Positions 18,711 through 35,016 of a stretch of DNA of 64,000 nt are shown piece after piece (the stretch's first letter is position 1; every line of letters starts with the position of its first letter). The stretch is taken from NCBI RefSeq assembly GCF_029868855.1, contig NZ_JARWOV010000111.1:1-64000 (forward strand), read 5' to 3'. Source of the DNA: Nocardia carnea (GTDB lineage: Bacteria > Actinomycetota > Actinomycetes > Mycobacteriales > Mycobacteriaceae). The translations under genes and the position numbers were made by a program. A model generated the notes under the pieces. It was not told the origin of the DNA, ran no database searches, and worked only from the letters and a program-made list of their open reading frames with translations.

Positions 18711-18744
18711 CTTTCCGCAGTCGGGCATGAACCTTGGAGGACCG

Positions 18745-20058
18745 TTGTCGATCACGGATGAGCGCTCGCAGGCGGGCTATGTGACCGATCCGGTGGCGGC
18801 GGTGGCAGGGTTGGCGGGGGCCGACCTGTTCGGCGAATACGTGGTGTACGAACGCCCGGGCGAGTGGGTGTTCGCGGCCGATCCGATCGGCACTGTCGAA
18901 CTGGGCGTCGAGGATCTACGCGTCGAATGGGATGGGCGCAGCAGCACCCGCCGGTGGACCGGCAGGCCCGCAAGCGCCCTCGATGTGGCGCTCCGCGCAT
19001 TACCGGTGGATGGACGGAACATCTACGGCTGGATCGGGTTCGAATTCTGCGCCTGGGCGCTGGAGGCCACCGCACATGTGGCAACGCCCACGACACTGGC
19101 GCATCTGATGATTCCACGTATCGAGGTCCGGATCGCGACGTCCGGAATCCGGATCTCCGGTGCGACACCCGCCGAGACCCGGGCGATCCACGATCTCGTC
19201 GCCGCCGCGCAGGACAGTGTGCCGCCGCTGCCGCATCCGACCGATATCCGCAGCGATCGGACCGGCTACCGCGAACGAGTGGCCGAGGCGGCCGCGGAAA
19301 TCCGGAAAGGCCGCTACCGGAAGGTAATACTGTCGCGGAAGGTCGAGCTACCCTTCATGGTCGACATACCGGCCACCTACCGGCTCGGCCGCGCACACAA
19401 CACCCCCGCTCGATCTTTTCTGCTGCGGCTGGGTGGGCTCGCGGCGGCGGGATTCAGCCCGGAATTGGTCGTTTCGGTCGACGACGGCCGCGTGATCACC
19501 ACCAAACCGGTGGCAGGCACCCGGCGCTTCGGCCGCAGCCACGCGGCCGATCTCGCCGCGCGCGCGGATCTGCTCGGCGATCCCAAAGAGATCGCCGAAC
19601 ACGCGATGTCGGTGAACACCTCTTTCACCGAGATCAGCGCGATCGCCGCACCCGGCACACCGGCCATCATCGATTTCATGACAGTGCGCGAACGCGGCAG
19701 TGTCCAGCACCTCACCTCCACCGTCCGCGGCCTGCTCACCGCCGACCGCACCGGCTGGGACGCCCTGGAAGCCCTGTTCCCGGCGGTCACCGCCGCGGGT
19801 ATCCCGAAACGCGAAGGCGTCGATGCCATCTTCCGGCTCGACCGCGATCCGCGCGGATTGTATTCCGGTGCGGTGCTCAATATTTCACCCTCCGGCTCAC
19901 TGGAGGCCACGCTGGTACTCCGTGCGGTCTACCAAACCGTCCACGGCGCCTGGCTGCGCGCCGGGGCGGGGATCATCGAACAGTCCACACCCGAGCGCGA
20001 ATTCGAGGAGACCTGCGAGAAACTCGAAAGTATCGCACCATACGTCGTCGCGGCATAA
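18745..20058 (+). CDS. mbtI: Salicylate synthase (MbtI-like, chorismate-utilising)
   Basis: A 437-residue chorismate-binding enzyme close to MbtI/Irp9 in length. Visible active-site regions are GRYRKVILSRKV (the family's general-base Lys), EHAMSVNTSF, PRGLYSGAV and the metal-binding C-terminal GAGIIEQSTPEREFEE. It converts chorismate to salicylate via isochorismate, giving the aryl cap for the siderophore. An ATG at 18727 would extend the protein by six residues, but a strong ribosome binding site (GGAGG, 18736-18740) lies inside that extension, so TTG 18745 is preferred. It is transcribed divergently from irtA with an IdeR box between them. Confidence 0.92.
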   Translation: MSITDERSQAGYVTDPVAAVAGLAGADLFGEYVVYERPGEWVFAADPIGTVELGVEDLRVEWDGRSSTRRWTGRPASALDVALRALPVDGRNIYGWIGFEFCAWALEATAHVATPTTLAHLMIPRIEVRIATSGIRISGATPAETRAIHDLVAAAQDSVPPLPHPTDIRSDRTGYRERVAEAAAEIRKGRYRKVILSRKVELPFMVDIPATYRLGRAHNTPARSFLLRLGGLAAAGFSPELVVSVDDGRVITTKPVAGTRRFGRSHAADLAARADLLGDPKEIAEHAMSVNTSFTEISAIAAPGTPAIIDFMTVRERGSVQHLTSTVRGLLTADRTGWDALEALFPAVTAAGIPKREGVDAIFRLDRDPRGLYSGAVLNISPSGSLEATLVLRAVYQTVHGAWLRAGAGIIEQSTPEREFEETCEKLESIAPYVVAA

Positions 20059-20145: not shown

Positions 20146-21759
20146 TCATCCCTCGGCGCGCAGGGCCTTCTTGTCGATCTTGCCGACCGCGGTCGTGGGC
20201 AGGCCGTCGGCACGACGCAGCACATCGGGAAGCTTGTACGTGGCCAGGCCCCGGTCGGTCAAGAAGGTCTTGATCTCGGACAGCGTCGGCATGTCACCAC
20301 TGACAACCAGGACGGCACAGACCTTCTCACCGAGCGCGGCATCGGGCAGCCCGACGGCAGCAGCATGGCGGACCGCCGGATGAGCGAGCAGATGCTCCTC
20401 GAGCTCGTCGCAGGAGACGTTCTCACCGCCGCGATTGATGACGTCCTTGATGCGGCCGGAAACAACGAGATGACCACTGGGCAGGCGGCGCACCAGATCG
20501 CCGCTGCGGTAGTAGCCGTCCGGAGTGAAAGCGCGGGCGTTGTGCTCGGGGGCCCGGTAGTAGCCACGAATCGTGTAGGGCCCCTTGGTGAGCAGCTCAC
20601 CCTCCGCTCCGGGAGCGACGTCATTGCCGTCACCGTCGACGACACGGATCTCGTCGGCCGCAGACAGCGGCCGCCCCTGCGTGGCGTGCACCAACTCGTC
20701 CGGATCGTCGAGGCGGGTGAAGTTGAGCAGCCCTTCGGCCATGCCGAACACCTGCTGCAGCCGCGCCCGGAGCGCAGGCTCGACCTCGCGAGCGTTCACC
20801 TCGGCCAGGCGGGCACCACCGACTTGCAGCAACCGCAACGAGGACAGATCGGCCTCCTCCCATTCGACTGCCGCACACCACAGTTGCGCAATCGGCGGTA
20901 CGACCGCGGTAACGGTCACCCGGTTCTGTTCGATCGCAGCGAATGCGTTCTCCGGACTGGGCTCGGTGACGAAGGCTACTGCGCCACCCACCGCGACCGT
21001 GCCGAGGATGCCGGGACAGGCGAGCGGGAAGTTGTGCGCGGCGGGAAGTGCCGCCAGGTACACGTCGTCCTCGGTCAGTTCACAGACCTCTGCGCTGGCG
21101 GTCGCGTTGTAGACATAATCGTCATGGGTGCGGGCGATCAGCTTCGGGAGCCCGGTGGTACCGCCGGAAACCAGCATGAGCGCTATATCGCCCGGATCGA
21201 CCGCGGGGAGCGAATCGCCCTCGCGCGGCACGGACTTCAGATCGACGAACGGGCCGGGGTCGCCGAGCACCAGCACGTGCCGCAGCGACGGCACTGCCGC
21301 TCGGACCTCGGCGGCCAACTCTCGGTAATCGAAGCCACCCATCCGGTCCGCGACAATGTAGCCGACCGCTTCGGAAAGCCGCGCCAGATGCTCGATCTCG
21401 CTACGCCGATGCGCGGGCAGCGTGAGCACCGGAATCATCCCGGCCCGCAACAGCCCGAACAACACCGGCACGAACTCGACCACATTCGGCAACTGCACCA
21501 CGACCCGGTCTCCAGGCTCGATTCCGAGCGCACGTAACCCGTGTGCCATCCGATCGGCCTCCGCATCCAGCGTCGCGTAGGTGCGCGCCTCGGCGCCGAG
21601 CAGCGCGGTCCGATGCGGATACCGCCGGGCGGTCTCACGCAGCAGCTCACCGAGCGAGCGTCCCTGCCAATAACCAGCTCTGCGGTACTCCGCGGCCTGC
21701 TCGACGGGAAAGGGAACGTAGCCGTCGCGATGGGCGGTCGAGGTGATAGGGGGAATCAC
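20146..21759 (-). CDS. Salicyl-AMP ligase (MbtA/YbtE-type aryl adenylation enzyme)
   Basis: A 537-residue stand-alone aryl-acid AMP ligase. Core motifs are SGGTTGLPKLI (A3), FGMAEGLLNFT (A5), YYRSGDLVRR (A7) and GRIKDVINRGGENVS (A8, with the later lysine of A10 near the C-terminus in AVGKIDKKAL). The pocket reads AHNFPLACPG. The Cys at the position of Ser240 of the DHB ligase DhbE is the residue associated with salicylate rather than 2,3-dihydroxybenzoate, in line with the nearby salicylate synthase. It should charge the aryl carrier of the NRPS at 9761-13765. GTG 21759 is preferred because GAAAGG lies six bases before it; in-frame sequence back to 22020 has no family similarity. Confidence 0.9.
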   Translation of the reverse strand: MIPPITSTAHRDGYVPFPVEQAAEYRRAGYWQGRSLGELLRETARRYPHRTALLGAEARTYATLDAEADRMAHGLRALGIEPGDRVVVQLPNVVEFVPVLFGLLRAGMIPVLTLPAHRRSEIEHLARLSEAVGYIVADRMGGFDYRELAAEVRAAVPSLRHVLVLGDPGPFVDLKSVPREGDSLPAVDPGDIALMLVSGGTTGLPKLIARTHDDYVYNATASAEVCELTEDDVYLAALPAAHNFPLACPGILGTVAVGGAVAFVTEPSPENAFAAIEQNRVTVTAVVPPIAQLWCAAVEWEEADLSSLRLLQVGGARLAEVNAREVEPALRARLQQVFGMAEGLLNFTRLDDPDELVHATQGRPLSAADEIRVVDGDGNDVAPGAEGELLTKGPYTIRGYYRAPEHNARAFTPDGYYRSGDLVRRLPSGHLVVSGRIKDVINRGGENVSCDELEEHLLAHPAVRHAAAVGLPDAALGEKVCAVLVVSGDMPTLSEIKTFLTDRGLATYKLPDVLRRADGLPTTAVGKIDKKALRAEG

Positions 21760-22051
21760 GTTATGCCTTTCAGGTACGAACACGGGAGCCTCTGCGGATT
21801 TCAGGATTCGATGATCAGCCCGCCCTCCGAGGTCCACCAACCCCGGCGACCCGTCCGAAACAAACGGGCACCGGGCTCGTAGGGATCGTGGCAAGCCCGA
21901 CCGGAGTCGGCTGCGCCGACGAACCACGCAGCCCCGCGAACCCATCCAGCCGGCCGAACAGTTCGCCATAGGTGACCACATCACCACCGCTCCGTCCTCA
22001 CTGCTCGGCACGGCCACCACCGAACCCCGACCTCCATCGCCCGCAATTTGC
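21760..22051 (-). other. Long leader between iron box and ligase start, with adenylation-like fragments
   Basis: About 290 bp separate the IdeR box from the chosen ligase start. On the reverse strand this stretch shows a fragment GDVVTYGELFGRLDGFAGLR in one frame and, in another, ARLFRTGRRGWWTSEGGL ending at a stop. Both recall adenylation-domain motifs (TYxELxxRxN..LA and RTGDxGRWxxDGxLE). They look like degraded remains of a second AMP-ligase, but the match is short. Confidence 0.3.
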
Positions 22052-22070
22052 TTAGGCTAAGCTAACATCT
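22052..22070 (-). promoter_or_regulatory. IdeR-like box upstream of the salicyl-AMP ligase
   Basis: TTAGGCTAAGCTAACATCT matches 14 of 19 IdeR consensus positions, with the central GCTAA core intact. It is the only iron box between the ligase and the divergent hydrolase, and it implies a transcript with an unusually long (about 290-base) leader. Confidence 0.65.
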
Positions 22071-22338
22071 AGCCCGGGGTCACGGGCAGGCAACCCGAAA
22101 TCGGGCGACACCCTCCGTTGCCGAGAGGTCCGGTACCACCTCGGCGGCACAGGTGACCGGTCTCGGCACGCCGGCACCCCTACTGACGGACCGATGCTCA
22201 TGCGTGCACCGACAACCGAACTCGACCCCGCTCGACGACGGGTTCGTGCAACACACAATGCGGTCCACGCTCGACACGGTGGGACTCCGCGAGCACTCGA
22301 AGCTCCACAGTTGACGCCGTAACACTCGCGGCGGTAAC

Positions 22339-22366
22339 TTCCATTACGGCCTGGAACGTAACGGAA
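22339..22366 (+). promoter_or_regulatory. Inverted repeat overlapping the hydrolase ribosome binding site
   Basis: TTCCATTACG (22339-22348) and CGTAACGGAA (22357-22366) pair at 9 of 10 positions around an 8-base spacer. The right arm overlaps the ribosome binding site GGAAGG, which starts at 22364, ahead of ATG 22377. It could be a repressor operator or an RNA hairpin that hides the ribosome binding site. Confidence 0.5.
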
Positions 22367-22376
22367 GGCGTGGTCG

Positions 22377-23270
22377 ATGCGTAGTGATGTGGAATTCCGC
22401 AGTGGCGGACTCACCCTGCGCGGGTGGCTGTATCGGCCGGACGCTCGCACCGGCGCCGTCCCGCTGGTGGTGATGACCCATGGATTCGCCGGGGTCAAAG
22501 AATGGGTCGCACCGTTCGCCGAGGTACTCAGCGCCGCCGGACTCGCCTGCCTGGTCTACGACCATCCCGGATTCGGCACCTCCGACGGCCTGCCCCGCTT
22601 CGAAGTGGACCCGGCCGCACAGATCGAGGGCTACCGCGACGCGGTGACCCACGCGCAGACCCTCGACGGAATCGATACCGACCGGATCGGAATCTGGGGC
22701 ACCAGCTACGCCGGCGCCCATGTCCTGGTCGTCGCGGCCACCGACCGCCGCGTCCGGGCCGTGGTCTCCCAGGTCCCACTGACCAACGGCTGGGCGACCT
22801 TCGGCCGCCTCGTACCGTCGACCATGCTGCCGGCCGTACATCAGGCCATCGCCGCGGATCGATCGGCCCGCGCCGCGGGCGAACCCCACCAGTTGATCAA
22901 GGCCGCCTCCGACGACCCCACCGAACTGGTCGCCATGCCGGGCACCGAGGTCTACGAATGGCTGATGGCCAACGGCCCCCAGGTACCCACCTGGCGCAAC
23001 GAGGTCTCGCTCTCCAGCATCGACAAATTCCAAAGCTACGCACCCGAAGCATTCCTGCGCCGCATCTCCCCGACCCCACTGCTGATGGTGATCGCCGAAC
23101 AAGACACCCTCACCCCCAGCGATATCGCACTCCAGAGCTACGCCGACGCCCTGGAGCCCAAACAGCTCGCACTGATCCCCGGTGGCCACTTCGCGGTGTA
23201 CGAGGACCGATTCGACCAGGCCTCCTCGGCCGCCCGCGACTTCTTTCTGGCGACACTCACCGACCGGTGA
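22377..23270 (+). CDS. Alpha/beta hydrolase (dienelactone-hydrolase/X-Pro-peptidase-like fold)
   Basis: A 297-residue single-domain hydrolase. The oxyanion region is MTHGFAGVKEW, the nucleophile elbow is WGTSYAGAH (Ser at about residue 120), the acid is probably in IAEQDTLTP and the His in GGHFAVYED near the C-terminus. Relatives of this type include uncharacterised hydrolases annotated as X-Pro dipeptidyl-peptidase or acetylxylan esterase-like; the substrate is unknown. It is divergent from the siderophore ligase and about 100 bp upstream of the LuxR-family regulator, on the same strand. The ribosome binding site overlaps a long inverted repeat, so its expression may be tightly controlled. 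Confidence 0.85.
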   Translation: MRSDVEFRSGGLTLRGWLYRPDARTGAVPLVVMTHGFAGVKEWVAPFAEVLSAAGLACLVYDHPGFGTSDGLPRFEVDPAAQIEGYRDAVTHAQTLDGIDTDRIGIWGTSYAGAHVLVVAATDRRVRAVVSQVPLTNGWATFGRLVPSTMLPAVHQAIAADRSARAAGEPHQLIKAASDDPTELVAMPGTEVYEWLMANGPQVPTWRNEVSLSSIDKFQSYAPEAFLRRISPTPLLMVIAEQDTLTPSDIALQSYADALEPKQLALIPGGHFAVYEDRFDQASSAARDFFLATLTDR

Positions 23271-23369
23271 CGGTCCGACTCGCACGATATCCGGGTCGAG
23301 GGACCCTCCCCTCGTCCAACGCCGCGGCGCGAGCGGTGACCCCTCGATCAGGAAGGGCAGGCTGGCCGC

Positions 23370-26072
23370 GTGCTGCACGGTCGAGATGATGTCGTCGAAC
23401 AGATCGAAGCACTCATCGACGACAGTCGAGAAGGTCGCGGCAATTCACTACTGATCACCGGCGGACCCGGCCAGGGCAAGACCACAATCCTGGAGCATGC
23501 CGCGAATTCGGCCGGTGAAGAGTGCATCATTCTGCGTTGCCGCGGAACCGAGCATGAAGCAGACTTGCGGTACGGAGGTCTGCACCAGCTGCTCGCACCG
23601 ATACCCGACGCGGTAAGAGCAGTACCGGAGCCGGTCCGCGCCGCCTCGGCTACGGCGGCGGGCACCGGCCCTTTCCAGCAGGACGACAACAGCCACCAGG
23701 TAGGCCTCGGGTTACTCGCGCTCTGGTCGGGGCTCGCAACCGAACGCCCGGTACTCCTCCTGATCGACGACGCGCACTGGTGGGATCAGCCTTCGATGCA
23801 CGCACTCGCCTTCGCCACACGCCGGCTCGTCGCGCACCGGGTGACGGTACTCGTGGCTTCTCGTACCCGAGGCAATACCTACGGACTGCCCGAGAAAGTG
23901 CTGATGCCACTGAGCAGAGATGACTCGAAAGTCCTGTTGCTCGAGCGGTTTCCCGGGCTGCCGGCCGACACACGTGAACGAGTTCTCGACACCGCGGCCG
24001 GCAATCCGTCAGCCCTGCTCCAACTGCCCGGCGCGAACAGCGACCTCCCTACGCTGGGACCGCTGGCACTGACCGGCCACCTGCAACGCGAGTACGAACG
24101 CGATATCGTCGCCCTCCCCGAGGACACCCGGATCGCCCTGCTGGTCGTAGCCGCCGATTGCAGTGGAAGTCTGAGCGTCGCCGTGCGCGTACTCACCGAA
24201 CTCGGTTCGACCGCCGCGGCGCTCGATGCCGCGGAACGAATCGGCGTCGTCGGCATTTCGGGATACTCGATCGCTTTCCGGCATCCGCTCGAACGAGCGG
24301 CCGCCTACCGGGTGGCTCCCTACAGCATGCGACTGTTCATCCACGCCACCATTGCGGCGTGTATCGAGGACCCCGAGTTACAGGCTTGGCATCTGGCCGC
24401 CGCTGCGACCGCACCCGACGAAGCCACGGCAATCGCCCTGGACGCGGTCGCCGAGAACGCACGGAGCAAGACCGACTACCGGCGCGCGGCAATCGCCTCC
24501 GAACATGCGGGCCGCCTCTCGTCCGCCCAGGACGTTCGTCACGACCGGCTGCTGGCGGCCTTGGAAGCCAATATCGAGGCCGGGCAGGCCGACCGTGCCC
24601 TCGGCTTGGCAGATGAGATCGCTACATACGAGGGCGGTTACGCGGACAGGGCACGCCTGTCCGCGGCACGTGGCCGAATACTCTCCGCCCAGGGGGACCC
24701 GCGCGGCGCGTACGACGCATTCACTCGTGCCGCACACCTGTATCCCGCGGATCCGGATACCGCGGCACGTATGCACCTCTACGCGGCGGGAGCTGTGTGG
24801 CCGGACCCGGATCCGTCCCGGATGCTCACCACCAGGGCCGAAGTGCAAACCCTTGCCCTCGGTGCCGGACGCCACGGATACCTGACCGTCCTGGACGGCC
24901 AGATCGCTCTCCACAATGGCAGTGGAGACCCGGCGCAAACGGTTCGTACCGTCCGCAGCGCCCTCCGCCTCGGCCGGTCCCGGTTTGCCGAGGACCATTC
25001 GATCCGGTTCGTCCTCGCCGTACAAGCCATGAGCGCGGGTGAGATCGACGATGCTCGCGCCGACTTGATCGAACTGAACACCCTGTGCCGCGAGCGCGGG
25101 ATGGCGGGGCGTCTCCCAATCGTCGGTATCGCACTCGGCGCTGTCGAAACACTGCTCGGCCACTTCCGGAAGGCGGAAACCGCACTCTCCGACAGTCTTC
25201 GGACGGCCCGCGAGATCGGCCAACCCGACCGCGCCGGTCGCGCCGGTGCCGGACTGGCGGTACTCGCTGCCGTGCGTGGTGAACACGACCTCTGCCGAAG
25301 ACTTGCCGAGGAGAATCTTCCCGGGGCACCTTCTCGCTTCGATACGACCAGCTCGGTGAACGCCCGGTGGGCCTTGGGCCTCCTCGACTTGGGTTACGGA
25401 CGGCATGAGGCGGCGATGGCCCACTTCGAAACGGCGTCCGACCATCGAGACCGGGCAATCGGCTGCTGGATTCCGCTGATCAGCGATCACATCGAAGCGG
25501 CGGCCCGGTGCGATCCGGCGCAGGCTGCCGAACAGATGTCGCTGCTGGAACGGTGGTATGCCGCCAACTCCGCATCCTGGATCGAAGCGCAGTTCCTCCG
25601 TTGCCGCGGAGTACTCGAGCAGGACGGGGCCGCATTCGCACAGGCACTGACCCTGCACGCCGAGGCGCACCGCTGGTTCGACCATGCCCGTACCGGCCTC
25701 CTCTACGGCGAATGGCTGCGCCGTGAGCGCCTCACGTTGAAGGCACGTGCAGTACTCCAAGCGGCGATGACTACTTTCCTCCGTCTCGGCGCCCTACCGT
25801 GGGCCGACAGGGCGCGTACGGAACTGCGCGCGGCAGGCGAAGGAACAGACAGCCACGCGGACGCCGTATCCGCACGGTTGACTCCGCAAGAGTTACAGGT
25901 CGTACGGCTCGCTGCCGGCGGGGCAACCAACCGGCAGATCGCCGCTCGGTTGCAGATCAGTCCCAAGACCGTCTCTCATCACCTCTACCGCGCCTTTCCC
26001 AAACTCGGTATCAGCAATCGACGTGCGTTGGCTCGGCTTCCACTCGGCCTCGACGATCCATCGAACGTCTGA
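23370..26072 (+). CDS. Large ATP-binding LuxR-family (LAL) transcriptional regulator
   Basis: A 900-residue regulator of the MalT/LAL type. An N-terminal AAA-like ATPase has Walker A GGPGQGKTT (residues 31-39) and Walker B VLLLIDDAHWWD (about 130). A long helical middle region resembles TPR repeats. The C-terminus (about 835-895) is a LuxR helix-turn-helix, LTPQELQVVRLAAGGATNRQ followed by SPKTVSHHLYRAF. LAL proteins often activate natural-product clusters. This one lies 255 bp upstream of the RiPP precursor on the same strand, which makes the RiPP operon its likely target, though the upstream hydrolase or siderophore genes are alternatives. The GTG at 23370 is the first start in frame. Confidence 0.9.
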   Translation: MLHGRDDVVEQIEALIDDSREGRGNSLLITGGPGQGKTTILEHAANSAGEECIILRCRGTEHEADLRYGGLHQLLAPIPDAVRAVPEPVRAASATAAGTGPFQQDDNSHQVGLGLLALWSGLATERPVLLLIDDAHWWDQPSMHALAFATRRLVAHRVTVLVASRTRGNTYGLPEKVLMPLSRDDSKVLLLERFPGLPADTRERVLDTAAGNPSALLQLPGANSDLPTLGPLALTGHLQREYERDIVALPEDTRIALLVVAADCSGSLSVAVRVLTELGSTAAALDAAERIGVVGISGYSIAFRHPLERAAAYRVAPYSMRLFIHATIAACIEDPELQAWHLAAAATAPDEATAIALDAVAENARSKTDYRRAAIASEHAGRLSSAQDVRHDRLLAALEANIEAGQADRALGLADEIATYEGGYADRARLSAARGRILSAQGDPRGAYDAFTRAAHLYPADPDTAARMHLYAAGAVWPDPDPSRMLTTRAEVQTLALGAGRHGYLTVLDGQIALHNGSGDPAQTVRTVRSALRLGRSRFAEDHSIRFVLAVQAMSAGEIDDARADLIELNTLCRERGMAGRLPIVGIALGAVETLLGHFRKAETALSDSLRTAREIGQPDRAGRAGAGLAVLAAVRGEHDLCRRLAEENLPGAPSRFDTTSSVNARWALGLLDLGYGRHEAAMAHFETASDHRDRAIGCWIPLISDHIEAAARCDPAQAAEQMSLLERWYAANSASWIEAQFLRCRGVLEQDGAAFAQALTLHAEAHRWFDHARTGLLYGEWLRRERLTLKARAVLQAAMTTFLRLGALPWADRARTELRAAGEGTDSHADAVSARLTPQELQVVRLAAGGATNRQIAARLQISPKTVSHHLYRAFPKLGISNRRALARLPLGLDDPSNV

Positions 26073-26327
26073 GGGCAGGCCCGGTCAACAGTCCGATACG
26101 ACCGATCCGACGAATGGGCGAACGACCGATACCGCCGGCGGAAGTACCGCCGTAGCGTTGCCGATGGGCGCTACATCGCAGACGCTCGGACACCACAACA
26201 TTCCCGGCCGCAGATGGGCCCCAACCGATTCGGGCAAGCTTCCCACTTCCGTGCCGCTCAGTAGACAGCTGTGCGATGTACGAACCAGCGCGGGGGCCGT
26301 CCGGCAACACTCAAAGAAAGGCATATC

Positions 26328-26525
26328 ATGCCCCTTCCTACCCTTCCGGGCGCCGCCGCCGGCGCCGGCCTCGCCGAGCTCAGCGCACAGTGGAGCGGAT
26401 CGGCGTCCGTACCGGATGTCCTGCGTGCGCATCTGGTCTCCTCGGACGCACGTAACCGTGGAAACTTCAATTCCTTCATCGAGAACAAGGGCAACTTCAA
26501 CTCGTTCATCGAACCGGGCGTCTGA
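26328..26525 (+). CDS. Putative RiPP precursor peptide with two NFNSFIE modules
   Basis: A 65-residue peptide. Residues 1-43 form an Ala/Leu-rich leader. Residues 44-53 (RGNFNSFIEN) and 54-63 (KGNFNSFIEP) are a tandem repeat, followed by GV and the stop. The ATG at 26328 has AAAGAAAGG just before it. Each repeat contains F-N-S, the FxS type of motif linked with FxsB-family radical SAM enzymes, and also F-I-E as a second aromatic-x-x triad. The FxsB-like maturase gene follows by 71 bp and an MFS gene comes next. In the described FxsA group the motif is C-terminal (FxSxx-COOH); here it is duplicated and internal. Crosslink positions are inferred, not seen. Confidence 0.75.
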   Translation: MPLPTLPGAAAGAGLAELSAQWSGSASVPDVLRAHLVSSDARNRGNFNSFIENKGNFNSFIEPGV

Positions 26526-26539
26526 ACCCTGTACATCCC

Positions 26540-26565
26540 GTCCCGGCGCGCACCCGCGCCGGGAC
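26540..26565 (+). other. Strong hairpin between precursor and radical SAM gene
   Basis: GTCCCGGCGCG (26540-26550) and CGCGCCGGGAC (26555-26565) form a perfect 11-bp stem with a 4-base loop CACC, 15 bases after the precursor stop. No T-run follows. Such hairpins after RiPP precursor genes commonly stabilise the precursor message or act as partial terminators, so that peptide is made in excess over the maturase. Confidence 0.65.
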
Positions 26566-26596
26566 ACCGGACGCCGGAAACTGCGAGGAAGTCGGT

Positions 26597-27832
26597 ATGA
26601 ACGCGAGCGTGGAATTCACCCAGGGCACACCGGCGGAGGAGTGGCCGGCCGGCGAGCGGCATGCCCGGGAAATCCGCGAAGCCCGGCCGCACAGTCTGCC
26701 GTTCACTCAGTTCGTCGTGAAGATCCACAGCCGGTGCAATCTCGCCTGTGACTACTGCTACGTCTACGAGATGTCGGATCAGAGCTGGAAAGACCAGCCC
26801 AGAACCATGTCGGATCAGATCTTCGACTACGCCTGCACGATGATCCGCGACCACGCCGCGCACTTCGCGCTGCCCGAGGTGAGCGTGGTTTTCCACGGCG
26901 GCGAGCCGCTGCTCGTCGGGCGCGCGTCGTTGGAACGTTTCGCGCGACGTGCCCGCGAGATCGTGGAACCGGCAACGCGAATCCGGCTCGGGATGCAGAC
27001 CAACGGCGTTCTCCTCGACACCGAATTCCTCGATATCTGTTCTCGGCACAACGTGCAGATCGGCGTAAGCCTGGACGGTGACGAGCGCGGCCACGACCGG
27101 CACCGGAAATACCGCCGGGGTGCCGGTAGCTACGCCGATGTCAGCGCCGGACTCCAGCTCCTGACCCAGCCTGCATATCGGCACCTGTACTCGGGCCTGC
27201 TCTGCACGATCGATATCGACAACGATCCACTCGACACCTACGAGGCGCTGCTGGACTTCGGACCGCCCGCCCTGGATCTGCTCCTACCCCACGGCAACTG
27301 GTCCACCCCGCCCCCGGGACGCACCACCGACCGGACCCGGGCGCCGTACGCCGATTGGCTCATCGCGATCTTCGATCGTTGGTATGGCGCCCCTGTCGCC
27401 GAGACCCGCATCAGGCTCTTCGACGAAGTGATCGAGTTGCTGTTCGGCGGCACCGGCGCCTCGGAGTCGGTGGGCCTCGCGCCGGTCCAGCTCGCCGTGA
27501 TCGAAACCGACGGCAGCCTGGAACAGGTCGATGCCTTGAAATCGGCCTTTGCGGGCGCCGCCCGAATCGAGGGCGGAACCGGCGGGAACGCGCTCGACCG
27601 GGCGATTCACGAACCCGCGGTGATCGCTCGGCAGATCGGTGTCGAGGCGCTGGGTGCCGAGTGCCGCGCCTGTCCGATCCACCGTGTCTGCGGTGCGGGG
27701 CATTACGCTCATCGTTACCGGGCCGGAAGCGGGTTCCGGAACCCATCGGTGTACTGCGCCGATCTCGAAAAGCTGATCCGGCATATCGAGTCCCGGATCC
27801 GGGCCGATCTGCAGGCCGCGACGGGCCGATGA
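26597..27832 (+). CDS. Radical SAM/SPASM peptide maturase, FxsB-like
   Basis: A 411-residue radical SAM enzyme. The 4Fe-4S motif is CNLACDYCYVYE (CxxxCxxC, about residues 50-57), and the following sequence SDQSWKDQPRTMS plus GGEPLL and SLDGDERGHDRHRKYRRGAG are typical of the FxsB family. The C-terminal SPASM-type cysteines lie in CRACPIHRVCGAGHYAHRYR and SVYCADLEKLI. FxsB relatives form three-residue cyclophane crosslinks between an aromatic side chain and a beta carbon two residues away. The protein lacks the extra HExxH domain fused in some FxsB proteins. It ends in an ATGA overlap with the MFS gene, so maturase and exporter are coupled. Confidence 0.88.
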   Translation: MNASVEFTQGTPAEEWPAGERHAREIREARPHSLPFTQFVVKIHSRCNLACDYCYVYEMSDQSWKDQPRTMSDQIFDYACTMIRDHAAHFALPEVSVVFHGGEPLLVGRASLERFARRAREIVEPATRIRLGMQTNGVLLDTEFLDICSRHNVQIGVSLDGDERGHDRHRKYRRGAGSYADVSAGLQLLTQPAYRHLYSGLLCTIDIDNDPLDTYEALLDFGPPALDLLLPHGNWSTPPPGRTTDRTRAPYADWLIAIFDRWYGAPVAETRIRLFDEVIELLFGGTGASESVGLAPVQLAVIETDGSLEQVDALKSAFAGAARIEGGTGGNALDRAIHEPAVIARQIGVEALGAECRACPIHRVCGAGHYAHRYRAGSGFRNPSVYCADLEKLIRHIESRIRADLQAATGR

Positions 27833-29037
27833 GCCGTTCCGGCGTCCTCGGGAACCGGAATTTCGTACTGCTGTGGTCCGGGAACGCGATCTCGCTCATC
27901 GGATTCCACGGAGTCCGCATCGCCTATCCACTACTGGCACTTGCGATAACCGGGTCGGCGGCGCTGGCCGGATGGGTCGGATTCGCGATCTCACTACCTG
28001 CCCTGCTGTTCCAGGTCCCGGCCGGAATCGCCGCCGACCGGTGGGATCGCCGGACCATCATGATCGTCTGCCAGACAGCTGGGCTCATCGCGGCCGGCTC
28101 GGCTTGGCTGGTCGTCGCACTCGATCTGCCCGAGCCGGGCCTGCTTCTTATAGCCGCCGCCTTCGTGGAAGGCACCGCCTTCGTATTCTTCGGAATGAGC
28201 GAGCTGGCCATGATCCGGGATATCGTGGATATCTCGCAACGGCCGACGGCATTCTCGCTCTTCGAGGCCGAACAACCTATTGCCCTGGTCCTCGGCCGGG
28301 CCGTCGGCGCGGCCGCGTACGGTATCGCCCGATGGGTGCCGTTCGCCGCCGACGCCGTCACCTATCTCGTCTGCCTGTGCACCCTGTCCTCGATCGAGGT
28401 TGCCCCGGCACGGCGGCGCCGTGATCCCGAGGTACCGGAACCCGCCCCGGCGACGCTGCGAACCGGGACTCAGCTGGTCCTCAGCGATCCTTTTCTCCGC
28501 AGTTCCACCGTGATCAGCGGATTGTCGAATATCGTCATCCAGGTCGTCATCCTCCTGATCATCGTCGATATCGAACGATCGGAGCGGCCCGTCTGGGTGG
28601 CCGGCGTCGTGCTGGGCGCCGCCGGCACAGGCGGCATCATCGGCTCCGCCGTTGCGGCCGGACTGGCGAACCGATTCGGCGCGCAGCAGCTGTATCGCTG
28701 GTCGCTGTGGTGCTGGGCGGGATTGATGATCCCCATCGCGCTGAGTGCACACCCGCTGGTGGTCGGTGCGGCTTGGTTCGGTATCGGCGCGGTCGGCGTC
28801 GTGGTGAATGTGGCACTGACCTTGTTTCGGGTGGAACGAATTCCCGAGGAAGTCCTGGGCCGAGCGGTCGGCGTGGTGTCGATGCTGACCGACGGTGCGG
28901 TTGCATTCGGTGCCATGATCGCGGGCTTTCTGCTCAGCGTTTTCGACACGACGGCCACCGGATGGATGATGGTCGCCGCCATGTTCACGCTCGCAGTGGC
29001 CGGCAGACGGGAGTCTCCCACCCTACGGCGGGAGTGA
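27829..29037 (+). CDS. MFS transporter (probable exporter of the RiPP)
   Basis: A 402-residue polytopic membrane protein with about 10-12 hydrophobic segments. It opens with NFVLLWSGNAISLIGFHGVR and has the MFS loop motif GIAADRWDRRTIMIV after the second segment, as in the MFS_3/enterobactin-exporter-like group. ATG 27829 overlaps the maturase stop, a strong sign of joint function. Export, and immunity through export, of the matured peptide is the simplest role. The C-terminus ends in a short charged tail. A siderophore-exporter role is a weaker alternative, since this protein group also includes EntS-type exporters. Confidence 0.87.
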   Translation: MSRSGVLGNRNFVLLWSGNAISLIGFHGVRIAYPLLALAITGSAALAGWVGFAISLPALLFQVPAGIAADRWDRRTIMIVCQTAGLIAAGSAWLVVALDLPEPGLLLIAAAFVEGTAFVFFGMSELAMIRDIVDISQRPTAFSLFEAEQPIALVLGRAVGAAAYGIARWVPFAADAVTYLVCLCTLSSIEVAPARRRRDPEVPEPAPATLRTGTQLVLSDPFLRSSTVISGLSNIVIQVVILLIIVDIERSERPVWVAGVVLGAAGTGGIIGSAVAAGLANRFGAQQLYRWSLWCWAGLMIPIALSAHPLVVGAAWFGIGAVGVVVNVALTLFRVERIPEEVLGRAVGVVSMLTDGAVAFGAMIAGFLLSVFDTTATGWMMVAAMFTLAVAGRRESPTLRRE

Positions 29038-29090
29038 CCGGGTCTGTCTGTGTTCGGCACGGTGAAGACGCAGCGAGAGACAAACATGCC

Positions 29091-29109
29091 GTTGCCGGGC
29101 AACTATAAT
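29091..29109 (+). promoter_or_regulatory. Promoter -10 element next to a 13-bp palindrome
   Basis: TATAAT at 29104-29109 abuts a perfect palindrome GTTGCCGGGCAAC (29091-29103). The start of the next gene is 60 bp downstream. The palindrome would sit in the spacer between -35 and -10, a common repressor position. No clear -35 hexamer was found. Confidence 0.45.
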
Positions 29110-29168
29110 CCGGGCCGGAGTCCATGACTGGTCGGGAGAGCCCGTCCGAGCCCGGAGGGGTGACGCTG

Positions 29169-29966
29169 ATGACTGGTTCTCCGCACGGATCCGGTGACCG
29201 GCCGAGTGTGGGAGATACTGATTTCCCTGTGTGGCAAACGGGACAAGGGCATCGGCCACAGCAGCAGCCTCTGCCGCCGGCGTATCCGCCGCCACCGACC
29301 GGGCGCGGAACATCGGGGCCGATCGTCGTCGGTGCTGTCGGGTCGGCGGTGGTGGTGCTGGTGGTCGGCGTGGTGGCCGGTGTGATCCTGGGCAGCCGAA
29401 ACAGCGAAAGCGTCCCCACCGCGACCCCGGAACCTGCGACCTACTCTATGAAGGCGATCACCGATGCGTGCGATCTGGTCGACCCCACGCCGTTGACCAG
29501 GTGGGCGTCCACGCCGCGCGCCGATCCTGTACATGAGGAAACCTCGGCTTCCGGCAACTTCGGCAACCTGCAGTGCAGTGTCTACTACGACAATTCGACC
29601 GGCGACGAATTTCCCATGAACACCGCCATGATGCGGGTGCGGGCCGACGTCACAAACGGTTCCGCCGCGCGAAAGTACGACCATTGCACACGCACGACCG
29701 CCGAACTCACCGATGACGGATCGGAGGTCACGTCCGGTTCGTTCACCGGAATCGGCACCCGGGGCTACTGGCAGTTCGAAGCCGACAATTTCGGTGGCAT
29801 CGTCGACGCCGAATACGGGGTGTGCATCTTGGACGGTGGTGCTGCGGTGCAGGTGCAGATCGAACTCTCCTGGGAGAAGGATTCCCCCGTGGTGGGTCGC
29901 GACGAACTCGATACGGTCGCCAGGGCCCAGGCCCGTAAGGTGCTCGACGGCCTGCGACAGAACTAG
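29169..29966 (+). CDS. Single-pass membrane protein with DUF3558-like extracellular domain (paralogue 1)
   Basis: A 265-residue protein. The N-terminus is Pro/Gln-rich and cytoplasmic, one hydrophobic helix follows (about residues 45-72, GPIVVGAVGSAVVVLVVGVV), and the rest is predicted extracellular. The outer domain contains TDACDLVDPTPLTRW and conserved Cys residues (CSVYYDN, DHCTRT, GVCILDG), recalling DUF3558 proteins of actinomycetes. ATG 29169 is chosen over 29124 because GGAGGGG lies eight bases before it. A paralogue follows directly. Function is unknown; cell-envelope proteins of this kind are common in Nocardia and Mycobacterium. Confidence 0.72.
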   Translation: MTGSPHGSGDRPSVGDTDFPVWQTGQGHRPQQQPLPPAYPPPPTGRGTSGPIVVGAVGSAVVVLVVGVVAGVILGSRNSESVPTATPEPATYSMKAITDACDLVDPTPLTRWASTPRADPVHEETSASGNFGNLQCSVYYDNSTGDEFPMNTAMMRVRADVTNGSAARKYDHCTRTTAELTDDGSEVTSGSFTGIGTRGYWQFEADNFGGIVDAEYGVCILDGGAAVQVQIELSWEKDSPVVGRDELDTVARAQARKVLDGLRQN

Positions 29967-30080
29967 GAAGATCGGCCTGGTGAAGACTTTTCAGCGGCTA
30001 CTCGGCCAACGCCGCAGTAGGATCGGCGCGGCACGGAAGGTCGGCGGGGAGCACGTCGAGGAATCGAGGGGCGGCAAGAG

Positions 30081-30959
30081 ATGACGGACCCTCGACACGA
30101 ACCGGGCCGGCCGCTCCCAGCCACCGCCGACCCCACCGAACAGCAACCGCATTTCTCGAAAGGCGACGAGACAGACCACGTCACAGAGCACGTCCGGCCC
30201 GGACAGGGATACCAGCCGCCGCCACCGCGGTTCATGCCCTCACCGCCCGGCCCAGGCAAAGCGGGCCTGATCGCCGCCGGTGTCGTCGGGCTGGTGCTGG
30301 TGCTGGCCGCGGGTGTGGTGATCGGTGTCCTCATCGCCGGCGGCGGCAGTGAACCCCGGTCCGCCGCTGCCGCGGCATCCTCCAGTGCCCCGGCCGGGCC
30401 GCCCAGTGCCGCCACCACCACAACGCCCGCGGCTGCGGGAACGTATTCGATGAACGGGATCACCGATGCGTGCGACCTGGTCGATCCCACCCCGTTGCAC
30501 AAGTGGTCGTCCACACCGGACCGAGCGCCCTACCATCACGAAACTCCGCCCAGCGATGACGATCCCGGCAGTCTGTCATGCCAGTTCAGCTACAAAAGCC
30601 AATCGGGTGACGGCGTCCACTGGAATCAAGCGGCCATCGATCTCCAGGTCGAGTTCACCGCCGCCGGAGCCTCACCCGCCTATGACGAGTGGAAACACGA
30701 GGACACCACCGCGCCCGGTGTGCATTCCGGCGAAGTCACCGGGATCGGCTCCCAGGGTTACTGGCACACCGCGACCGGGAACACCACTCATACCACCGGA
30801 CTGGACTACGTCGTATGCGTGCAGGACGACAATGTCTCGCTGCGCGTACGAATCCCCATCCTGCGCCAGCACGGCGAGTCCCTGCCCAGCCCGGACGAGC
30901 TCGGCGTGATCGCCCGAAACCAAGCCCGGCAGGCTCTGGACGGACTGAAGCGCGAGTAA
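30081..30959 (+). CDS. Single-pass membrane protein with DUF3558-like extracellular domain (paralogue 2)
   Basis: A 292-residue paralogue of the preceding protein with the same layout: a Pro-rich cytoplasmic segment, one transmembrane helix (about 58-88), an Ala/Ser/Pro/Thr-rich linker and an outer domain with YSMNGITDACDLVDPTPLHK and GTRGYW/GSQGYW-type motifs. The C-terminal IARNQARQALDGLKRE matches the ARAQARKVLDGLRQN end of paralogue 1. The 114-bp gap and same direction suggest tandem duplication. The extracellular domains have diverged considerably, while the TDACDLVDPTPL block is nearly unchanged. Function unknown. Confidence 0.75.
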   Translation: MTDPRHEPGRPLPATADPTEQQPHFSKGDETDHVTEHVRPGQGYQPPPPRFMPSPPGPGKAGLIAAGVVGLVLVLAAGVVIGVLIAGGGSEPRSAAAAASSSAPAGPPSAATTTTPAAAGTYSMNGITDACDLVDPTPLHKWSSTPDRAPYHHETPPSDDDPGSLSCQFSYKSQSGDGVHWNQAAIDLQVEFTAAGASPAYDEWKHEDTTAPGVHSGEVTGIGSQGYWHTATGNTTHTTGLDYVVCVQDDNVSLRVRIPILRQHGESLPSPDELGVIARNQARQALDGLKRE

Positions 30960-30974
30960 CCACGGCCGATCGGC

Positions 30975-31380
30975 AAGTCCGTGGCGTCCCGCAAGGTGCC
31001 GATCAGCACGGGATCGGACGGGCTGCCGATCAACGGGTCTGGTGGCAAGACCTACCACGCGCGTTTCCTACCCCCGGAGGTCAGTGAGTTCTGGTCGTTC
31101 ACCGTCTACGGCAGCGATGACCGGCTCATGGGCGCACAACGCGGTCGACCGGCACAGCCGCGGCGACCGCACCCCGGTCCCCGATATCGACGGCTATTAC
31201 ACACTCGAACTCGGCGCCGACGCCGCAACCCATGCAGACAACCCGAACTTCCTGCCGATTCCGGAGAAGGACGCTTACCTGATCTTGCGGATGTACGGAC
31301 CGAGCACAGCGGTGCAGAACGGCGAGTACGCGATGCCGACCTTCGCGGTGGAGCCAGCGTGCGCAATCGGTGATGTCTGA
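30975..31380 (+). pseudogene. Truncated, frameshifted DUF1254/DUF1214 protein remnant
   Basis: One frame reads PINGSGGKTYHARFLPPEV and SEFWSFTVYGSDDRLM, then a single-base shift at about 31130 moves the similarity to the next frame, AHNAVDRHSRGDRTPVPDID with YLILRMYGPSTAVQNGEY, ending at 31380. Together these match the C-terminal DUF1214 domain (FWSxTxYdxdxxLvxNxxdRxSxGDRTP...). The N-terminal half of the family is absent, because the remnant begins immediately after the paralogue 2 stop. So it is both truncated and frameshifted, and it marks a past rearrangement breakpoint. Confidence 0.7.
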
Positions 31381-31518
31381 TGCCGCCTATAGGTGGATAT
31401 CGGCGGCGGTGCAGATCGGGAAGTGGTCGTATCCGCAGGTTTTGGTGTCGTGACATCGATTGTGTTACGGGAAGGCGGGTGCCGCAGCAACGCCGGTCGA
31501 TGCTCTACGGGAAATTCA

Positions 31519-32070
31519 TCAGAGGTCGGGCACCGGGGCAACGAATCGTTGGACCATGCGCCGTTCGGCCGCTGAATCGGGAAGCGGCCAGGCCAGTAGT
31601 GCGAGCACGATCCGCACGATCCATTGCGCCGCCTCGGCGTCCGGCGTCATCCGGGCAAGAGTGGATGCGATATTGCTCAGTTCCGGTGCGGTGGAAAGTA
31701 TTTCGTCGGTAGCGGCGGATCGGTGCCGGGTGAGCCACTGTTTCAGCGTGGGGTCAGCACGGATGGCGGCCACGGCGGCGAGAACGGCTTCCACCATCCG
31801 TCGAGATCCCTGGAAAGGTTCGATGGCCACGGTGACCCGCTCGGCCACCGTCGCGGCGGCCTTCGCGAGCACCGCATGGACGAGCTCGGTCTTCCCCCCG
31901 GCATGCCGGTACAGCGTCGCACGGGAACACCCCGCCGCGGTAGCTATATCGTCGATGGTGACGTTGTCGATGCCCCGTTCGAGGAACAGGGCCGCGGCGG
32001 TCCTTTCGATCCGGTCCGCAGCGATCGCGCGACGGTCACCTCCAGCGAGCCAATCCACACCACTTCTCAC
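31519..32070 (-). CDS. TetR-family transcriptional regulator
   Basis: A 183-residue regulator. The N-terminal helix-turn-helix reads IERTAAALFLERGIDNVTID followed by AAGCSRATLYRHAGGKTELV. The C-terminal ligand-binding part is not recognisable. It is divergent from the P450 gene at 32308. A perfect 17-bp palindrome lies 34 bp before its start and a second 19-bp inverted repeat about 92 bp before the P450 start, so autoregulation plus P450 control is likely. Confidence 0.88.
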   Translation of the reverse strand: MRSGVDWLAGGDRRAIAADRIERTAAALFLERGIDNVTIDDIATAAGCSRATLYRHAGGKTELVHAVLAKAAATVAERVTVAIEPFQGSRRMVEAVLAAVAAIRADPTLKQWLTRHRSAATDEILSTAPELSNIASTLARMTPDAEAAQWIVRIVLALLAWPLPDSAAERRMVQRFVAPVPDL

Positions 32071-33657: not shown

Positions 33658-34824
33658 TCATTCCGAAGGCGCCGGAACGAACCCTTCCGGCCACCTCGTG
33701 CTGCTGTCGTAGCTGATTCCGGTGAGGTCCGCACCGTTCAGGGAGGCGCCGCTGAGGTCCGCACCGGAGAGATCCGCACCCTCGAGTAATGCGTTGGTGA
33801 GGTTCGCTCCGGTTAGGTCGGCATCGGTGAGGTCCGCTTCGGAGAGGCTCGCGCGGGTGAGGTTCGCGTTTTCCAGGTCCGCACCGGAGATGTTCGCACG
33901 GGTGAGGTCGGCTCGGGTGAGATTCGCACCCGTGAGGAACGCGTCGGAGAGGTCGGACCAGGAGAGGTCGGCCTCGGTGAGGTTCGCTTGGATGAGGCTC
34001 GCGGACAACAGCTCCGCGCCGACGAGGTTCGCACGGGTGAGCTCCGCGGAGCCGAGGGCGGCGACGGTGAGGAACGCGTTGGAGAGATTCGCTTCGGTGA
34101 GGCGCGCATTGTCGAGGTATGCGCCGACAAGGACGGCGTTCGTCAGGTTGGCGCCGGCAAGCTGCGGCGCGGCACTGCCGGGACCTGACTTCCTGGAGTC
34201 CCAGGCCTCGGGCAAGCAGGCCCGGCCGAGATTCAGTGCGTTCACCGGGTCATCGTGTGTGATATCGCGGCGCGAGATAACCGTCAGTGCCGTTTCGACA
34301 TCGGCAGGTAAGGCCTTTCGGGGGGCGGCGGGATCGAAGCCCGGCGGCTCTACCCCCGGAACATCGGTGAAGTACCTGGCACATGCCGCGTTGTGCGCGT
34401 GGGTCTGAAGAAACGAGCTCAGCAGAGCGAAAACGGTGGGGTGATCGCCCGGTGAGTCTTTCGCGAGCTGTTCGAGCAGATAGATCCCCGAGAGACGGAC
34501 GTTGATCTTGTCGGAAGCCAGTTGTTCCGCAGCGAGCCGGAAACGGTCGGTGGTCGCGGTTCGCTGAGCCAGGGATTGCTGGTCGTTGGACACCTTCAGC
34601 GACTCACCCGAGAACCACAGCGCGGCGACCGCCGCCACCGACGCACCGAGCGTCGCGAATATGGTCGCCATCGCCCCCAGCTTCGCCCAGCCCGGCCAGT
34701 GAAAAAACCTGCTCAACCGAGAGGGCTCAGCAACCGGTTCGGGCGAGGGCGGTGGTCTCAGAGATCGGCCCTGGCCTGCGACGACAGGACGGTTACGAGC
34801 GAGTCGAAGATCCCCCGTGGTCAT
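33658..34824 (-). CDS. Membrane-anchored pentapeptide-repeat protein
   Basis: A 388-residue protein. One hydrophobic helix (about residues 50-70, AMATIFATLGASVAAVAALW) precedes a region with RLSGIYLLEQLAKDSPGDHP, which recurs in actinomycete pentapeptide proteins. From about residue 210 to 370 there is an uninterrupted run of A(N/D)LxxA units (SLIQANLTEADLSW is a sample), forming a quadrilateral beta-helix. ATG 34824 is chosen because GGAAGG lies just before it. Pentapeptide proteins include DNA mimics that protect gyrase (MfpA/Qnr). It is divergent from a GyrB-like protein, an intriguing but unproven link; the membrane anchor argues against simple DNA mimicry. Confidence 0.88.
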   Translation of the reverse strand: MTTGDLRLARNRPVVAGQGRSLRPPPSPEPVAEPSRLSRFFHWPGWAKLGAMATIFATLGASVAAVAALWFSGESLKVSNDQQSLAQRTATTDRFRLAAEQLASDKINVRLSGIYLLEQLAKDSPGDHPTVFALLSSFLQTHAHNAACARYFTDVPGVEPPGFDPAAPRKALPADVETALTVISRRDITHDDPVNALNLGRACLPEAWDSRKSGPGSAAPQLAGANLTNAVLVGAYLDNARLTEANLSNAFLTVAALGSAELTRANLVGAELLSASLIQANLTEADLSWSDLSDAFLTGANLTRADLTRANISGADLENANLTRASLSEADLTDADLTGANLTNALLEGADLSGADLSGASLNGADLTGISYDSSTRWPEGFVPAPSE

Positions 34825-35016
34825 CAGAATCCTTCCGAAACTGTTCTCCTCCAACGTATCCGAACCGAGAACCGAGGGCCACGTCATCGCGCAGTTCGCA
34901 CATTCTCTCGGGCATCAGGAGTAGGACGGGGGTCAGCAAGCCGCCGTCATGACCGATCGCACCGCAGAGCTCGGCACACCTTGCCCACAGGCGCAGCCAC
35001 TACCCAGACTTCTCTG

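Follow-up and report, generated by a model that had tools for sequence, protein, structure and literature searches.

The window, i.e. the 64,000 nucleotide (nt) stretch of Nocardia carnea contig NZ_JARWOV010000111.1 (positions 1–64,000 of the forward strand), contains at positions 26328–29037 a real and conserved operon, a variant of the FxsA/FxsB cyclophane system in which the core is repeated. It encodes a 65 amino acid (aa) precursor peptide, a radical S-adenosylmethionine (SAM) maturase of the FxsB family and a major facilitator superfamily (MFS) protein. The precursor displays two core modules, F47-N-S49-F-I-E52 and F57-N-S59-F-I-E62, which share the sequence GNFNSFIE. FNSFI is the known FxSxx motif, here moved inward and multiplied. 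The best reading of the locus is therefore a multi-core FxsA-type operon for a ribosomally synthesized and post-translationally modified peptide (RiPP), in which one Phe–Ser three-residue cyclophane would be formed per module. The probability assigned to this reading is roughly 0.7. The features of the locus are as follows.

23370–26072, + strand: gene for a large AAA-LuxR (LAL/MalT-like) regulator that probably activates the operon, PF13191 AAA_16 and PF00196 GerE; its GTG start is uncertain
26313–26321, + strand: ribosome-binding-site-like AAAGAAAGG 5′ of the precursor gene, from reading of the sequence
26328–26525, + strand: multi-core precursor gene, 65 aa, with same-position homologues in eight other Nocardia species (alignment A1)
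26457–26486, + strand: core module 1, RGNFNSFIEN, with a predicted crosslink F47–S49 (26466–26474)
26487–26516, + strand: core module 2, KGNFNSFIEP, with a predicted crosslink F57–S59 (26496–26504)
26540–26565, + strand: intergenic stem-loop with an 11 bp stem, a 4 nt loop and no T run (helix test across Nocardia loci)
26597–27832, + strand: gene for an FxsB-family radical SAM/SPASM maturase, 411 aa (TIGR04269 match)
27829–29037, + strand: gene for an MFS exporter (PF07690 and PF05977)

A first-pass annotation of this DNA had proposed that precursor, maturase and MFS genes form one operon, and this is what is found. The genes follow one another in that order, with 71 nt between the precursor and maturase genes, and the last two overlap by a shared ATGA (27829–27832). 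The precursor open reading frame consists of 65 codons and a stop codon and has AAAGAAAGG 6 nt upstream of its start. The longest open frame could begin at the GTG at position 26271, giving 84 aa, however position 26328 is preferred, since it is here that the start, the AAAGAAAGG before it and the starts of the homologues agree. The duplicated internal motif described in the earlier annotation is present as the two GNFNSFIE modules. An in-frame repeat of eight residues did not occur in any of 50,000 shuffles of the precursor (longest repeat, seven). The codons of the two modules differ at 6 of 10 positions; four of the six changes are synonymous and the other two are R/K and N/P.

The maturase sequence matches the FxsB model TIGR04269 at residues 36–398 of 411 with 469.6 bits (NCBIfam cut-off 370), and the earlier assignment of the radical SAM protein to FxsB thus holds. 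The YhhB model NF041707 gives 368.9 bits, which is below its cut-off of 445, and the XyeB and GrrM/OscB models are far below theirs. Cysteines C47, C51 and C54 of the CX3CX2C SAM-cluster motif and C356, C359, C365 and C387 of the SPASM domain are invariant in 33 aligned sequences. An AlphaFold2 model of the maturase has a mean pLDDT (predicted local distance difference test) of 87.7, and its best structure match is 9gmc, a complex of ChlB with ChlA (its precursor) or the leader (Z 48.5; 1.8 Å over 368 residues, 35% identity). The next matches are sulfatase-maturating enzymes at Z 35. The maturase MscB is presumably also an FxsB-family member, going by its InterPro number. The window genome has 7.6 Mb, and its maturase shares 92% identity with the N. 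carnea and Nocardia speluncae enzymes. Seven positions, Q38, K171, Y172, D181, E277, G287 and A313 (window numbering), nearly separate two sets of Nocardia maturases, the nine with repeated-core precursors and 21 others, allowing one exception at most in either set.

Relatives of the maturase were collected from 150 genomes of the genus, 34 of which contain an FxsB-like gene (E-value threshold 1e-60), and from a scan of an 84,980-species collection, in which 116 places were confirmed and the best 80 of the 116 were used; these are partly the same loci. A total of 134 tblastn pieces gave 112 maturase copies with distinct DNA. The maturase strand alone was scanned to a distance of at most 1.5 kb in both directions, the target being a pair of identical F-x-(S/T)-x-x cores falling within 40 residues. 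Repeated cores are found near 9 of the 112 copies; all nine are in Nocardia and all are at the precursor position, with no other match. Two modules are present in the window, N. speluncae, N. rhamnosiphila, N. grenadensis and N. cyriacigeorgica, three in N. carnea, N. wallacei and genome G121, and nine in genome G118 (locus L122). Homologous precursors with a varying number of modules beside related maturases, which the first-pass annotation had named as a test of its own proposal, therefore exist. Related Nocardia maturases are accompanied by single-core precursors, some of them as tandem genes. Each of the nine units in the L122 array measures 33 nt. Units 2 to 6 have the same DNA sequence, which suggests a recent expansion or homogenization. 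The copy in G010 (L119) is cut by a contig end and was excluded. Distant Nocardia copies (L021 to L030, approximately 47% to 50% identical) are included in the repeat scan and stand outside the neighbor gene counts given below.

A tree of 38 maturases places the nine repeated-core sequences on one side of a branch (one change; support values of 78/83; recovered in 79% of 200 bootstrap trees), which makes a single origin likely, not certain. The last FNSFI of the window precursor is internal and is followed by EPGV, and among the nine repeated-core precursors a C-terminal FNSFI-COOH is found in N. cyriacigeorgica only. The earlier view of a duplicated, internal core motif thus stands with a refinement, i.e. 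FNSFI is the FxSxx motif itself and has a terminal copy in N. cyriacigeorgica. The simplest history would be that a terminal FxSxx gained a short tail and then multiplied in one group of Nocardia.

The profile made from alignment A1 matches 19 of 148 genomes of the genus. In wider samples it matches 4 of 298 genomes at the order level and 3 of 394 at the class level, all of which belong to Nocardia and include the window genome; only 14 to 19 candidates were scored per genome, so the absence outside Nocardia counts for little. Among the matches listed in the open-access literature, no paper deals with repeated-core FxSxx peptides, and this is weak evidence as most subscription papers lie outside that scope. 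Upstream of the FxsB-like genes of L082 and L059 (Mycolicibacterium rhodesiae and an actinobacterial metagenome-assembled genome) are open reading frames that both end in AFGAFNQHSSSPW; these possibly represent a different precursor type. A mobile origin of the operon was considered and rejected. Maturase relatives are present on 19 of 72,556 plasmid records (E 1e-40), one of them a Nocardia plasmid, and nothing comparable was shown for the window operon.

The nine precursors contain 28 modules. The phenylalanine at position 1 and the serine at position 3 are present in 28 of 28, and likewise in 18 of 18 single-core Nocardia precursors. In an alignment of 21 Nocardia precursors the only invariant residues are Met1, F47 and S49. 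Position 2 is Asn in 23 modules and Ser in five. The pattern used for counting modules fixes F, S, and Ile or Leu at position 5; reading of the nine sequences by eye reveals no extra degenerate unit. The first-pass annotation had proposed F-I-E as a second crosslink site, so that Phe1–Ser3 and Phe4–Glu6 bonds would give four cyclophanes in the window peptide. F-I-E is indeed present in 14 of 28 modules, three modules read FNSFIS and so repeat F-x-S, and related enzymes accept several third residues according to passages of a review (PMC11002830). However position 4 is Phe in 21 modules and Ala in seven, and position 6 is Glu in 14, Ala in six, Ser in three, and Val, Asp, Gly and Thr in one module each; the one remaining module stops right after FNSFI and so has no position 6. 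Glu6 is found in 0 of 18 single-core precursors. On this lack of conservation a second F-I-E crosslink is not taken as the default reading, and two crosslinks per module are unlikely.

For the five closest species, with their ten pairs pooled, the ratio of nonsynonymous to synonymous change (pN/pS) is 0.066 for the first module and 0.127 for the last, against 0.610 for the leader. Purifying selection on the modules is far stronger than that on the leader. Together with the residue conservation, this indicates that F-x-S is the part that matters and leaves F-I-E unsupported. The same values bear on an alternative in which modification is confined to the most C-terminal module, as it is in single-core FxSxx peptides, with the upstream modules serving as spacers or decoys. 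The C-terminal place of the family motif would favor it, as would the array of G118, where FNSFI is kept in just the last two of nine modules. It is nevertheless improbable, as in these five species the constraint on the first module is no weaker than that on the last (0.066 vs 0.127), and F1 and S3 are kept in all modules.

The AAA-LuxR gene, the intergenic hairpin and the missing HExxH hydroxylase are points that the first-pass annotation did not contain. The regulator gene is upstream in nine of nine repeated-core loci, with homologues of at least 500 bits in the eight loci other than the window. At 18 other Nocardia loci, the sole regulator match above 60 bits is one of 61.6 bits (L113); L112, with 313 bp of upstream sequence, cannot tell. 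An MFS gene is directly downstream of the maturase gene in nine of nine; in the eight loci besides the window, no more than 27 nt separate the start of its match from the maturase match. An MFS gene directly downstream is also seen at the single-core loci L129 and L037, and L127 has one at a distance of 86 nt. In several single-core loci, a gene of 1.8 kb separates the maturase gene from the MFS gene. That of L121 encodes an aKG-HExxH-type peptide beta-hydroxylase (TIGR04267, 139.3 bits, cut-off 40), and relatives of it are present at 13 of the 18 other Nocardia loci and at 42 of 70 loci in other genera (L041 to L110).

With the L121 protein as query, no HExxH hydroxylase gene or domain is found beside the maturase in any of the nine repeated-core loci. 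It is also absent at five loci that are single-core or have no precursor. Across whole genomes, the query finds a match in 13 of 20 Nocardia genomes; among the repeated-core genomes there is none in five of nine, the window genome included, and the other four have a match elsewhere in the genome. As the nine loci appear to be one lineage, the pattern of regulator, MFS gene and hydroxylase is probably one correlated event and not nine. Genome G118 also holds L117, a single-core locus with two near-identical precursor genes and an HExxH hydroxylase gene. Distant Nocardia FxsB copies (G121:C1:3200505-3202892, and similar copies in G119 and G120) have open frames of 816 to 943 aa, and since these include the HExxH match they look like fused FxsB-hydroxylase proteins. 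A link of the locus to defense was rejected; the PADLOC matches are limited to a similarity to viperin-like radical SAM proteins and, over the helix-turn-helix region of the AAA-LuxR protein, a match to a CARF protein.

The gap between the precursor and maturase genes (65–93 nt) contains a hairpin in 19 of 19 Nocardia loci tested, i.e. nine repeated-core and 10 single-core loci. The test was run without L018, L040, L113, L116 and L117, the last of which has a gap of 10 nt. The best helix has a shuffle p of 0.03 or less in 17 of the 19; the exceptions are L031 (0.12) and L011 (0.35). The helix score of the gap is higher than that of equal-length stretches upstream and within the maturase gene, save for the upstream stretch of L011 (8 against 7). 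The inner 5′ arms of the hairpins are just 40% identical on average, thus pairing is kept while the sequence changes. Energy z-scores are less clear. They range from −0.9 to −4.5 in the gaps, and the stretch upstream of the precursor gene has values of −3.0 or lower in L122, L012, L015 and L011. There is no Rfam family at the gathering threshold in 22000–32000, and neither a consensus terminator nor a T run was reported at the hairpin. The hairpin is probably an attenuator, a partial terminator or an element of mRNA stability.

The operon might also be a decaying or non-functional remnant, or its precursor frame untranslated, and the HExxH hydroxylase that adjoins many FxsB genes is not found in the window genome. 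The ribosome-binding-site-like sequence, the purifying selection on the cores, a gene order held in nine species and the conserved hairpin make this highly improbable.

If one Phe–Ser cyclophane is formed per module, the pathway may be as follows. The AAA-LuxR protein would sense a signal and activate transcription, and the hairpin may hold the precursor mRNA above the level of the enzyme mRNA. The leader, which has a conserved L-x-E-L...P-x-L-R region, would dock on the FxsB-type enzyme (cf. ChlB, crystallized with the leader of its precursor). By analogy with the family, the enzyme would form, within each FNS triad, a bond from the Phe1 ring to the Ser3 beta carbon. The expected product is one three-residue cyclophane and a change of −2 Da per module, i.e. 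two in the window peptide. The leader would then be removed by a protease encoded elsewhere, which may cut on the C-terminal side of the Arg or Lys in front of each GNFNSFI, and the product would be exported by the MFS protein. In 18 of 19 modules outside L122, the third residue ahead of the core Phe is Arg or Lys, a possible cleavage signal. A more tentative suggestion, on balance doubtful, is that the array is exported uncut as a poly-cyclophane chain of 2 to 9 rings whose length is set in each species by repeat expansion, and not cut into multiple copies of a single small product. The five consecutive identical units of G118 are as expected from recent unit-by-unit expansion.

Several points weigh against the reading of one Phe–Ser cyclophane per module in a multi-core FxsA-type peptide. 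The motif of the window precursor is not C-terminal, unlike that of the FxSxx-COOH family. The window precursor has no NCBIfam match at E 1 or better, and it does not reach the 28-bit cut-off of TIGR04268. The search patterns contain F-x-S, and the invariance of F1 and S3 is therefore partly by construction. Seven of the nine modules in L122 read FNSAI, and at the place of the possible cleavage signal Arg and Lys are missing from all nine; the third module of L123 also lacks such a residue. No protease is identified within the operon. A single repeated-core group has moderate support in the tree. Lastly, six Nocardia maturase copies (L038, L019, L112, L013, L014 and L115) have no adjacent candidate precursor; these were not counted as single-core, and L112 is at a contig end.

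One of the closest known systems is that of FxSxx-COOH and FxsB (TIGR04268/TIGR04269). The maturase belongs to TIGR04269, FNSFI fits F-x-S-x-x, and a precursor gene stands before and beside an FxsB gene, which is the gene context of TIGR04268. The window motif differs in being repeated, internal and followed by a short tail, and in a precursor that escapes TIGR04268. Tested on six relatives, this model gives 35.3 bits for a Pseudofrankia precursor and a weak 16.5 for one single-core Nocardia precursor, and misses another single-core Nocardia precursor and three repeated-core ones. Since the standard family model misses the window precursor, similar multi-core peptides may be overlooked.

ChlB is the closest solved structure to the maturase, however the identity is 35%. 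ChlB is termed a multiple cyclophane synthase in a title cited by PMC12636437. According to passages of the same paper, ChlBH combines a radical SAM protein and an HExxH enzyme in one fusion; at the window operon no HExxH domain or gene of this kind is found. As in the triceptide systems (MscB, XncB, OscB and YhhB), there is a small precursor with aromatic-x-residue triads and a SPASM radical SAM enzyme, going by the portions of PMC11002830 that treat them; MscB forms Phe C4 to Ser C-beta crosslinks according to the same portions. The window core is, in contrast, a repeated FNSFI, and the YhhB, XyeB and GrrM/OscB models stay below their cut-offs. The window peptide has the aromatic-x-Ser triad in which a triceptide-type cyclophane bond would be formed.

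VMAP-linked FxSxx systems, as outlined in parts of PMC7159879, also combine an FxSxx peptide with a radical SAM/SPASM gene. The neighbors in the window are AAA-LuxR and MFS genes (no search aimed at VMAP, vWA or AP-ATPase genes was made), and no relative of the HExxH (zincin-like) protein of the single-core loci is found in the window genome. TvgA/TvgB is similar in that one radical SAM enzyme modifies a repeated motif several times, but there the motif is TVGG and the chemistry is that of cyclopropylglycine (sections of PMC9062424).

Nocardia species with one, two, three and nine cores and related enzymes provide a natural series for the processivity of FxsB, its reach from the leader and its need for a C-terminal carboxylate. 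G118, with a nine-core system that has no hydroxylase gene and a single-core system that has one, allows a direct comparison within one genome.

Other open reading frames of the window are located on both sides of the operon. Positions 29124–29966 and 30081–30959 (both +) are adjacent, similar open reading frames, apparently tandem paralogues with a membrane segment. The former has no NCBIfam or Pfam match above cut-off and the latter has no NCBIfam match at 1e-10. At 33658–34887 (−) is a pentapeptide-repeat protein, for which the best model is the Alr5209 family (105.1 bits, below the cut-off of 125). Upstream of the regulator gene, positions 18727–20058 (+) encode a salicylate synthase (TIGR03494, 500.1 bits, cut-off 325.15) and positions 20146–22020 (−) a dihydroxybenzoate-AMP ligase-like protein (643.1 bits, below the cut-off of 723.55). 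We take this pair to be of the kind present in nocobactin- or mycobactin-type siderophore clusters.

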